From: Calditrichota bacterium
Lineage (GTDB): Bacteria; Calditrichota; Calditrichia; RBG-13-44-9; J042
DNA: 64,000 bases
Direction of reading: 5' to 3'
Assembly (NCBI GenBank): GCA_013150955.1
Contig: JAADJD010000043.1
Coordinates: 110,450 to 174,449, forward strand
Of the stretch, positions 3,522 to 63,907 are shown piece after piece (position 1 is the first letter of the stretch; every line of letters starts with the position of its first letter). The notes under the pieces were generated by a model. That model saw nothing but the letters and a program-made list of their open reading frames with translations, did not search any database and was not told the origin of the DNA. A program made the position numbers and the translations under genes.

Positions 3522-4012
3522 TTCCAATTGATGTATAAACCCAAATAATGCGTTGAACCACGAATCACGCGAATGAAGTCAAAAAATATCTGCAAAATCG
3601 CGAATAGATCCCGGAACACATTTTCATCCAGATTTCATAAAATGGATTTTATTATTTTTATTTGTTTTAAATCGTGTCATTCGTAGGCTATTGCATAATC
3701 TGGGATAAAAACCGATCTTTTACAAAGCGTAAAACGGCATCTGAAGAACACGTTTTTGCGTTTGTTTTTTCGCAAAGACAGTCATATCGCCTTGAGGTGG
3801 GGGAGCACCCTTCTTGTTGGGGAGATGTGGCCACCAGGAAAAATTTGGCAACGAGTGGCAAATTTTTCCCAAATTTGAAAATGGCTTGATTTCTTTAAAG
3901 GATCTCGCATAGATTTGAGGCCGTCCGGGCAGGGGGATCTATGACAGAATTCCACGGAAATCTCCGTTCGTAATCAAAGGATCTTTAATTTTAGCTGGAT
4001 AAGGAGGTTCAC
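3522..4012. other. Intergenic gap between the LKR and SDH genes
   Basis: Holds one intact 166-bp repeat element (3539-3704, listed separately) and about 300 bp of AT-rich sequence with no convincing coding frame. A good ribosome site (AAGGAGG, 4001-4007) marks the end. The gap probably carries a promoter for the second gene, but I could not pick one with confidence. Confidence 0.6.
3539..3704 (+). repeat. 166-bp MITE-like element, copy 1 (intact, forward)
   Basis: Begins ACCCAAATAATGCG and ends GCATAATCTGGG; the two ends are imperfect inverted repeats of about 40 bp containing CCACGAATCAC and GTCATTCGTAGG. It is flanked directly by ATAA on both sides (3535-3538 and 3705-3708). The length is identical to the inner nested copies at 34033 and 63707 and the copy at 55590. 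No coding capacity. Confidence 0.88.
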
Positions 4013-5335
4013 ATGAAAAATGTGGTGATTTTGGGTGCCGGTCGGGTGGCCAAACCCATGGTAGATTATTTATTAAAATTCCCGGATTATCGGGTTATTC
4101 TGGCGTCGCGTACGGTTTCCAAAGCCGAAAAGCTGATCCATCACCATTCGCATGCCGAGGCTCTTCCGCTGGACATTCAAAATGAAACCGAACTGGATCG
4201 ATTGGTGGAGCGGGCAGACCTGGTGGTCAGTTTGCTCCCTTACACCTATCACGAAAAATTTGCTCGCCTGTGTTTGACCCATCAAAAACCTTTTATCACC
4301 ACCTCTTATCTATCGGAACCCATTCGGCAGATGGATGCCAAGGCGCGGGAACGCGGGGTAATCATCCTCATGGAGATTGGTCTCGATCCGGGAATTGATC
4401 ACATGTCTGCAAAAAAGATCATTGATCAGGTGCACGCGGATGGGGGGAAGGTGGTAGCATTCCGATCGTATTGCGGAGGTATTCCTGCGCCAGAAGCCAA
4501 TACCAATCCACTGGGCTACAAATTTTCGTGGAGTCCCCGGGGTGTTTTGATGGCCGGACGAAACGGCGCCCGCTTTCTGGAAAATGGTAAGATTGTTGAG
4601 ATTCCGGGTGAAGATTTATTTCATCATCACTGGAATATCCAGATCGATGGATTTGAGCTGGAAGTGTACACCAATCGGGATTCTTTGACTTACATCGACC
4701 TGTATCAGATTCCAGAAGTTCAGACCATGTTTCGGGGCACGCTGCGATATCCCGGATGGAGCGAGGTTCTGGGTGCATTAAGTCAGCTGGGGCTGCTTTC
4801 GGAAACGAAATTTGAAGGTGTTAAACAGTTGCCTTATGCAGCAATTCTTAGGCAAATGCTGGGCATTCCGGAATCGGAGGATTTGAAGGCGGCAATAGCG
4901 CGGCGTTTAAAAAGAACGATCGATGATCCTTTGCTGAAAAAGCTGGAGTGGCTGGGATTTTTTGAAGAGACGCCTTTCCCGGATGATTCCACAACTCCGA
5001 TCGATTTTCTGACCCATTTGATGCTGGAGCGGATGCAATACGAGCCGGGGGAACGTGACCTGGTGGTGCTGTTTCATGATTTTCGTGCGGAATATCCCGA
5101 TCGGGTGGAGCGAATTACCTCCACGTTGATTGAGTATGGTCAACCCGACGGAGATACGGCCATGGCGCGTACGGTTTCGCTCCCGGCAGCCATTGCGGCC
5201 CGGCTCATCCTGGAAGGAAAGTTCCAGCATCCGGGCGTTCACATCCCTGTCCTCCCCGATCTGTATGTGCCGGTGCTGGAGGAGCTGGAAGCCCTGGGAA
5301 TTCATTGCAGAGAAAAACGGGAAGTTTTGTCCTGA
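4013..5335 (+). CDS. Saccharopine dehydrogenase (glutamate-forming), SDH half of AASS
   Basis: Predicted to cleave saccharopine oxidatively to glutamate and 2-aminoadipate semialdehyde, the second step of lysine degradation. The Rossmann motif VVILGAGRVAKPMVDYL sits at residues ~4-20. Downstream signatures match the C-terminal half of eukaryotic AASS: LVVSLLPYTYHEKFA, TTSYLSEPIRQMD, IGLDPGIDHMSAKKI, SYCGGIPAPEANTNPLGYKF-type sequence followed by SWSPRGVL, and LRGTLRYPGW as FRGTLRYPGW. At 440 residues it is close to the isolated SDH domain length. Start chosen at ATG 4013 after AAGGAGG. It works with the upstream LKR gene; the separation into two cistrons is the bacterial arrangement of what is one polypeptide in animals and plants. 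Confidence 0.88.
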   Translation: MKNVVILGAGRVAKPMVDYLLKFPDYRVILASRTVSKAEKLIHHHSHAEALPLDIQNETELDRLVERADLVVSLLPYTYHEKFARLCLTHQKPFITTSYLSEPIRQMDAKARERGVIILMEIGLDPGIDHMSAKKIIDQVHADGGKVVAFRSYCGGIPAPEANTNPLGYKFSWSPRGVLMAGRNGARFLENGKIVEIPGEDLFHHHWNIQIDGFELEVYTNRDSLTYIDLYQIPEVQTMFRGTLRYPGWSEVLGALSQLGLLSETKFEGVKQLPYAAILRQMLGIPESEDLKAAIARRLKRTIDDPLLKKLEWLGFFEETPFPDDSTTPIDFLTHLMLERMQYEPGERDLVVLFHDFRAEYPDRVERITSTLIEYGQPDGDTAMARTVSLPAAIAARLILEGKFQHPGVHIPVLPDLYVPVLEELEALGIHCREKREVLS

Positions 5336-5806
5336 GCGTACAGGCGATCCAACCCGCAGCTGAAAAATCTGTGATGGATCGCCTTCCAGAAAAATACAGG
5401 CCTCTCCAGGCTGTTCGTATCAGGAAGTGCCGCAGGTGTCTGACCCGTCTTTCCGTTTTTTCCCCTGGGGCATACACATTCAACTGACATGGCCCGGCGA
5501 AGAAGTATGGAAACGTGCTGGTCTGTGAACTTCTGTTCCTGCCGTCAGGCTCCGAAGCTACCGGACTGGGGCCAACTCCTTCCCCAAAATGGGCCTTGTG
5601 TTAGAAAAGTCACTCAAAAAATGAATCCTGCCCGATTAAAATTTATCTTCTTTTAAGAATATTTCTTGAAGAATATGAATTGTCTTTTGGTAAACATACT
5701 GTTTTCCTGCCATGACAAGCGATTTTCCTGCTGCCGAAGAATTCGGTGAAGGAGTGGGTTCAGCCGGGTTTGTGAAATTGGAACCAGAATTTGAATTTAT
5801 ACAAAA

Positions 5807-5840
5807 AAATAAAATTTTAGTCTTGAAAATAAAATCTTAG
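5807..5840 (+). repeat. Direct repeat overlapping the receptor promoter
   Basis: Two copies of AAATAAAATYTTAG (5807-5820 and 5827-5840) differ at one base and start exactly 20 bp apart, about two helical turns. The second overlaps the -35/spacer of the candidate promoter, so it could be an operator for the TonB-dependent receptor. No regulator is identified. Confidence 0.45.
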
Positions 5841-5851
5841 CGGTTTATCTT
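5823..5851 (+). promoter_or_regulatory. Candidate sigma-70-type promoter for the TonB-dependent receptor
   Basis: TTGAAA (5823-5828), a 17-bp spacer, then TATCTT (5846-5851). It lies about 70 bp upstream of the receptor start codon, which has AGGAGGT in front of it. Confidence 0.5.
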
Positions 5852-62247: not shown

Positions 62248-62271
62248 ATTGAACCGTTACATGAGGTGAAC

Positions 62272-63546
62272 ATGTCCGTAGTCGTTGTTGTTGGTGCGCA
62301 GTGGGGGGATGAGGGAAAAGGCAAAATTGTCGATCTGTTAAGTGAGCAGTACGATATTGTGGCCCGATATCAGGGTGGGGCCAATGCCGGGCACACGGTG
62401 CATATTAATGACAAGACCTACATCCTCCACTTGATTCCCAGTGGCATTCTGCATCCGCATGTGGAATGCGTGATCGGCAATGGTGTGGTGATCGATCCGG
62501 TGGCGTTGATGGACGAGATTGCCCTGCTGGAGAAAGAGGGGATTTCCGTTAAGGGGCGGCTGTGGATCTCCCAGAAGGCGCATCTCATCATGCCGTATCA
62601 CAAATTGCTGGATCAGGTTACCGAGCAACAGGCCGGGGCGCACCGAATTGGAACCACCGGGCGAGGCATTGGACCGGCGTATGTGGACAAATTCAACCGT
62701 CGGGGGATTCGGATTGTGGATTTGCTGGATCCCGATTTGCTGGAACGAAAACTGCGTCGAAATCTGGAAGAAAAGAACGCCCTGCTGCAAAAGATTTATG
62801 GCCACACCCCCATGAACATTGATCAGATCATCGAAGAGTACCTGAAATTCGATCAGTTGATTGATCCCTACATTAAGGATGTGTCCATTTACCTGGATCG
62901 TGCCATTCGCGAAGGGAAGCAAATCCTGCTGGAGGGGGCACAGGGTACGCTTCTGGATGTGGATCATGGAACGTATCCGTATGTGACATCCTCCAATCCG
63001 GTAAGTGGTGGGGCTTGCATCGGGGTGGGGATTGGTCCCACCCGCATAACGGCGGTGCTGGGGGTGTTAAAGGCCTACACCACGCGGGTGGGAGAAGGGC
63101 CTTTCCCCACGGAGCTCACCGGCGACGAAGGGGAATTTCTGCGCCAGGTGGGGAAGGAATTTGGTGCCACAACCGGACGTCCGCGCCGCTGCGGCTGGTT
63201 CGATACGCTGATTGCCCGCTATGCCGTCCGGGTGAACGGCATTACCGACCTGGCCATCACCAAGCTGGATGTTCTGGATCAGCTTCCGGAAATTAAAGTG
63301 TGTGTGGCGTACGAGTACGAAGGCCGACGGCTGGAAGAATTCCCCACCGATTTGAAAATTCTACAAAACTGCCGTCCCATTTACCAGACGCTCCCGGGGT
63401 GGGAAACCCCCACCGGGCATTTAACCTCCTGGAACGATTTGCCCGATAATGCCCGGCGCTATCTGGAGTTTATTGAAGCGTCCATTGGCGCCCGGATCAA
63501 GATCATTTCGGTGGGTTCCCGACGGGATCAGACCATATTTGTTTAG
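62272..63546 (+). CDS. purA: Adenylosuccinate synthetase
   Basis: Joins IMP and aspartate using GTP, the first committed step of AMP synthesis. 424 residues from ATG 62272, preceded by GAGGTG; an upstream in-frame ATG lies within the previous terminator. Signatures: [19 protein letters not shown] (GTP P-loop, catalytic Asp), [59 protein letters not shown], and [18 protein letters not shown]. All are standard PurA motifs. The stop codon TAG abuts the first repeat copy in the following region. Confidence 0.97.
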
Positions 63547-63585
63547 CCCGGGTTATGCCCTTAGACCACAAATAAACGCAAATTA
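63547..63585 (-). repeat. Truncated left end of the 166-bp element, flush with the purA stop
   Basis: CCCGGGTTATGCCCTTAG and AAATAAACGCAAATTA are the diverged remains of a reverse copy whose left flank TTAG contains the purA stop codon TAG (63544-63546). Confidence 0.6.
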
Positions 63586-63907
63586 ACCCAAATAATGCAT
63601 TAAGCCACGTATCACACGAATAAATCCAAAAAATAACAACAAAATCGCGAGTAATCCCCTGGACACATTTTCATCCTGATATCATCAAATGGATTTTATT
63701 TTTTATCCCAGATTAAGCAATAGCCTACGAATTACACGAATTAAAACAAATAAAACCAATAAAATACATTGGATTGTGTCTGGATGAAAATGTTTCCCGG
63801 GATATATTCGCTATTTTGTTGATATTATTCGAATTTATTCGTGTGATTCGTGGTTTAACACATTATTTGGGTTTATTCGTGTTCATTCGTGTCATTCGTA
63901 GGCTATT
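63586..63907 (+). repeat. 166-bp MITE-like element, copy 9 outer (forward, interrupted)
   Basis: Pieces 63586-63706 (ACCCAAATAATGCATTAAGC ... TTTTATTTTTTTAT) and 63877-63907 (TCGTGTTCATTCGTGTCATT to GGCTATT). Deleting 63707-63876 rejoins them as TTTTATTCGTGTTCATTCG, the normal family sequence. The extreme right end is lost. Confidence 0.85.
63707..63872 (-). repeat. 166-bp MITE-like element, copy 9 inner (reverse, nested insertion)
   Basis: Exactly 166 bp, CCCAGATTAAGCAATAG to ACATTATTTGGGT, flanked by TTAT on both sides (63703-63706, 63873-63876). Confidence 0.9.

Follow-up and report, generated by a model that had tools for sequence, protein, structure and literature searches.

A short repeat with inverted ends recurs in the window, the 64,000-nucleotide stretch of a Calditrichota bacterium genome analysed here, and raises the question of what kind of element it is and which enzyme has spread it. 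An earlier note on this DNA had counted nine intergenic copies in both orientations, some of them nested in one another, and had proposed a 166-bp MITE-like unit with a 4-bp ATAA target duplication, mobilised by an enzyme encoded elsewhere in the genome. Our preferred reading, to which we assign a probability of roughly 90%, is that the repeat is a non-autonomous MITE of the IS1380 type, whose ends would be bound by an IS1380 transposase and inserted at WTNAW sites, a resident insertion sequence (IS) being the likeliest helper.

Structure and target site of the repeat

Nine near-full copies of one element of ~165 bp, all intergenic and in both orientations, were located in the window together with fragments of three older copies split by newer ones (Table 1), so that both the count and the self-nesting reported earlier were confirmed; the matches reach E-values down to 1e-54, far beyond chance. 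The element proper runs from CCC to GGG and has a modal length of 165 bp, which is also the length of the consensus. The repeat described in the earlier note is thus real, but its length of 166 bp is one base too long, since the 'ACCC' start given there consists of the fifth and last base of the target duplication followed by CCC. The imperfect terminal inverted repeats (TIRs) of ~40 bp and the 7-bp internal duplication of the copy at 37.74 kb are as had been described. Coding capacity is absent, as also claimed: no ORF of at least 120 aa was found within any copy, and 165 bp are too short for a transposase.

Table 1. Copies and fragments of the element in the window (TSD, target-site duplication)
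Feature	Position	Strand	Model positions	Flanks
Full MITE copy, 165 bp	3540..3704	+		TSD ATAAA/ATAAA
Near-full diverged copy, ends degraded	12377..12538	-	3-163	
Near-full copy	17303..17465	+	2-165	
Right-end fragment, tandem with copy 17303-17465	17469..17533	+	102-165	
Near-full copy	21599..21756	-	1-163	
Right-end fragment, weak	23539..23585	-	119-165	
Right-end fragment	23587..23640	-	112-165	
Full copy	23641..23807	-		TSD ATTAA/ATTAA
Older host, part 1, split by copy at 34034	33985..34033	-	118-165	
Full copy nested in older minus-strand copy	34034..34198	+		ATAAA/ATAAT
Older host, part 2, split by copy at 34034	34200..34312	-	2-115	
Older host, part 1, around copy at 37743	37680..37745	+	6-72	
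Full copy, 7-bp internal duplication, nested in older copy	37743..37913	+		
Older host, part 2, abuts end of ORF 38016-39317 (-)	37913..38015	+	63-165	
Full copy; TSD includes TAA stop of ORF 54924-55589	55591..55755	+		TSD ATAAA/ATAAA
Older host, part 1, around copy at 63707	63587..63704	+	1-118	
Full copy nested in older copy	63707..63871	-		TSD ATAAA/ATAAA on own strand (TTTAT on +)
Older host, part 2, around copy at 63707	63870..63910	+	116-156	

Identical 5-bp sequences flank 28 of the 71 copies whose CCC and GGG ends are intact, as compared with 6.9 expected from shuffled flanks, and no excess over shuffled flanks is seen for duplications of 3, 4, 6, 7 or 8 bp. A 4-bp duplication is ruled out in the same copies (1 match, 1.8 expected). 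ATAA does stand beside the clean copies, as the note had observed, but the duplication comprises five bases (ATAAA), and the underlying rule is WTNAW: the duplicated sequences ATAAA, TTAAA, TTTAA, TTTAT, ATTAT, TTGAT and ATTAA all fit it, and in the window the copy at 23641-23807 has duplicated ATTAA, unlike the ATAAA copies. The WTNAW motif, found at 2.4% of genome positions, occupies the right flank in 65 and the left flank in 60 of these 71 copies.

The nested copies record their own target sites. A sample of 826 kb, made up of the whole contigs C17, C64, C29 and C20 and the window, contains 17 insertions nested in older family copies. On average the host is best restored by removing the element plus 5 bp (mean of 42.8 matches at 50 positions), as against 39.1 when 4 bp, 39.5 when 6 bp and ~35 when other numbers are removed; some single cases favour another number, several of them owing to a hit boundary one base off or an altered host. 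These hosts are internal empty sites in which the target was present once before the newer element inserted, as the earlier note had expected of unoccupied sites.

Among the coding sequences of the window, a 1,278-aa ORF (49615-53451, minus strand) encodes about nine 94-aa Ig/cadherin-like repeats (He_PIG, Big_9), to which the 282-nt direct repeats of the window correspond. In a 912-aa protein (34423-37161, minus strand), DUF5689 and CBM_56 are combined with FlgD_ig at the C-terminus. The final ~100 aa of this protein are found again at ~60 loci of the same-genus genome, which suggests that they are a secretion sorting signal.

A resident IS1380-family insertion sequence

The genome contains one locus with a match to PF13701 (9.8e-41), and the encoded transposase is classed as IS1380 family by NCBIfam NF033539 (219 bits, cutoff 180). 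Situated at one end of contig C18, the gene starts ~136 bp inward of a terminus with the sequence CCCAGATTACGCAATAG. In a DNA search, contigs C27, C21 and C13 were found to terminate in the left 86 bp of this IS as well, and contigs C14, C12, C19, C44 and C35 in its right part; in all, four left and five right junctions coincide with contig ends. To judge from this arrangement, the IS is a multi-copy element of ~1,459 bp (~1.46 kb) that has collapsed in the assembly. Its left end is thus CCCAGATTACGCAATAG and its right end, reverse-complemented, CCCAGATTACGCATTAG; these ends, CCCAGATTACGCAWTAG, match those of the MITE, so that the search for a full-length IS with matching ends, proposed in the earlier note, leads to an IS1380-family element in the same genome. 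Its flanks, which cannot be paired individually, read TTTAA at three of the left and three of the right junctions, and TTAAA and ATAAT at the other right ones.

The agreement extends beyond this genome. Relatives of the transposase are encoded at 64 loci (none were found in viral contigs), and those at which both ends were found carry CCCARATT(nnn)CAWTAG or a near variant, a consensus drawn from the loci compared here. Exact paired 5-bp repeats occur at six of them, L123 (ATTAT), L126 (ATTAA), L136 (TTCAT), L138 (TTCAA), L141 (TTTAA) and L130 (TTCAA); the relatives with such ends and duplications belong to Magnetominusculus, Syntrophaceae, Nitrosomonas, Nitrospira, Rhodoferax and a betaproteobacterium. 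Since all six repeats fit WTNAW, the MITE has its ends, the length of its duplication and its target rule in common with the resident IS as well as with independent IS1380 elements from other phyla. PMC3281130 and PMC2887853 likewise give 5-bp repeats for the IS1380-family elements IS1247 and ISEcp1, respectively. All these IS1380 elements resemble the MITE in their CCC-type ends and 5-bp A+T-rich duplication; they differ from it in encoding a transposase of ~430-460 aa, whereas the MITE is non-coding and has the ends alone in common with them.

Short, non-coding, bounded by TIRs and a target-site duplication and sharing its ends with a resident autonomous element, the repeat has the sequence features of a type I MITE, the type mobilised by a resident IS; those of an IS1380 source are likewise present, namely a NF033539/PF13701 transposase and a 5-bp duplication that is paired in the six relatives. 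The proposal of the earlier note that an enzyme from elsewhere in the genome mobilises the element is therefore upheld and can be narrowed, on the strength of the matching ends and target rule, to the IS1380 class. The element has very probably been moved by a transposase of that family. In the scheme that we infer, an IS1380-type DDE transposase, supplied by an IS1380-family insertion sequence, would bind the CCCARATTATGCAWTAR ends of the MITE in trans, move it by a DDE reaction and insert it at A+T-rich WTNAW sites, thereby generating the 5-bp duplication; the copies would then pile up in intergenic DNA, often at the 3′ ends of genes and inside older copies. The ~1.46-kb multi-copy resident IS, rather than a lost cousin, would be the likeliest present or recent helper.

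Abundance, age and alternative origins

A profile search of the 826-kb sample returned 238 non-overlapping matches, 117 of them near-full, and the element covers 3.2-3.6% of each sampled contig. Extrapolated to the 4.07-Mb genome, this amounts to an estimate, rather than a count, of ~1,170 whole or partial copies, ~580 of which would be near-full. The TIR pattern CCCARATWAWGCANTA, with at most two mismatches, matches 1,638 times in the whole 4.07-Mb genome as compared with 118 times for the reversed control. Individual copies show 78-94% identity to their consensus, and the two most similar copies of the sample are 97% identical, no pair attaining 98%; judged by these identities, the family did not expand very recently. 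It may now be quiet, because no sampled pair reaches 98% and the sole assembled transposase copy is frameshifted (L071 near position 1060, on C18 of the source genome G000), whether by mutation or by an assembly error. The transposase relatives mostly have one uninterrupted frame; the remaining resident copies, which the assembly has collapsed, have no readable sequence.

One could argue that the copies are kept for a function, as bidirectional terminators, mRNA 3′-end stabilisers or nucleoid sites, and that transposition explains only their origin. Such a role would be in line with the strong hairpin formed on either strand (z -6.1 and -5.3), with the location of 115 of 120 near-full copies outside long ORFs (96% intergenic) and with a mild enrichment in convergent gene gaps (28/118 vs 53/347, p 0.048). 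The hairpins, however, follow from the inverted repeats, the element has no match in Rfam, and copies are freely nested and often broken. About ten copies have their duplication on, or at most two bases from, the stop codon of a neighbouring ORF, as in the case of the copy at 55591; TAA and TGA fit within WTNAW, so that insertion there preserves the stop. The distribution in relatives also speaks against conserved sites. Strong matches were found in only one of the 40 genomes of the phylum examined, the source genome itself. The same-genus genome G001 is collinear with the window over 22.6-43.1 kb, and its syntenic intergenic gaps of 448, 266 and 524 bp, as compared with 626, 565 and 836 bp here, contain no copies, albeit in intergenic DNA too diverged for the exact target base to be placed. 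Since these gaps are shorter and free of the element, the copies are, by this comparison, not conserved structural features, and the positional conservation that the earlier note had named as a contrary sign is absent between these two genomes. The sole relative of the family found in G001 is a divergent element of 307 bp (L080, 1243-1549), with the same type of ends, an ATAAT 5-bp duplication and a different interior. We consider it improbable that function accounts for the repeat.

An equally improbable alternative is that the MITE stems from a different autonomous element, now lost, and that its likeness to IS1380 reflects convergence of short AT-rich ends. Indeed, only the terminal ~17 bp are common to the MITE and the resident IS, their interiors being unrelated, and even within the ends position 10 is C in the IS and usually T or A in the MITE. 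In addition, the MITE copies look older: no pair of them reaches 98%, whereas copies of the IS resemble one another so closely that the assembly has collapsed them. The MITE may therefore have expanded mainly before the present IS, and an earlier cousin of that IS may have driven the expansion. Chance convergence would nevertheless have to reproduce the ends, the duplication length and the full WTNAW rule of several independent IS1380 elements. Moreover, none of the other DDE_Tnp_1 loci scanned in the genome has a clear pair of such ends on both sides; lone MITE-type ends do lie near some of them, as is to be expected from the density of such ends. Another DDE transposase is present in several partly degenerate copies of similar protein sequence (L072, L074 and L077, at C4:11070, C25:182 and C8:36115 of the source genome) and has no clear tie to the MITE ends. 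Finally, spread as REP-like repeats by a Y1 (TnpA-REP) transposase, which the high copy number, palindromic structure and intergenic location might recall, is highly implausible, since HUH/Y1 transposition makes no target duplication and the 5-bp duplications and nested single-target sites do not conform to the absence of duplication expected of REP elements.

The IS1380-type reading leaves room for a composite origin of the interior. Other genomes of the phylum have palindromic repeats (e.g. L211-L237) that contain the stem motif ATTCGTGTNATTCGTGG found in the interior of the MITE, with 42 occurrences in G016, 11 in G014, 9 in G008 and 7 in G012 as against 0 for the control, and the copies read in G016 and G012 have no CCC ends. 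It is tempting to speculate, although we regard this as rather unlikely, that the MITE is a hybrid in which a palindrome already widespread in bacteria (CCACGAATnACACGAAT...ATTCGTGTnATTCGTGG) was captured by IS1380 ends. Its stem might be a module open to selection, with the help of which such elements attain very high copy numbers. A text search of the literature, as far as the searchable text extends, found no occurrence of the motif string.

An abundant MITE family with a probable link to IS1380

The repeat constitutes a new MITE family, very abundant and of unusually high copy number, within a class of elements that is well known. The Correia elements of Neisseria are similarly short, intergenic, numerous and devoid of a transposase; as far as is known, their ends and target rule are different and they number hundreds of copies at most. 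The ERIC sequences of Enterobacterales, likewise short, palindromic and intergenic, also number in the hundreds and are not known to have IS1380-type ends. According to a review (PMC10969869), ERIC attains 711 copies in Photorhabdus luminescens, and the Chunjie MITE of Geobacter uraniireducens, which by its description there also has TIRs and direct repeats and is mainly intergenic, measures 178-235 bp and is present in 38 whole and 57 partial copies. By extrapolation, the ~1,170 copies estimated here exceed that ERIC figure, and the family would rank with the most numerous MITEs so far reported from bacteria. The abstracts and selected passages that were searched, representing part of the literature, contained nothing that ties a MITE family to IS1380.

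The nested copies yield a precise target rule, WTNAW with a 5-bp duplication, for this IS1380 subgroup, and the family ties such an expansion to IS1380. ISEcp1, itself a member of the IS1380 family, mobilises adjacent genes by using alternative right ends. About 1,000 IS1380-type ends in one genome would offer the enzyme many alternative partner ends.
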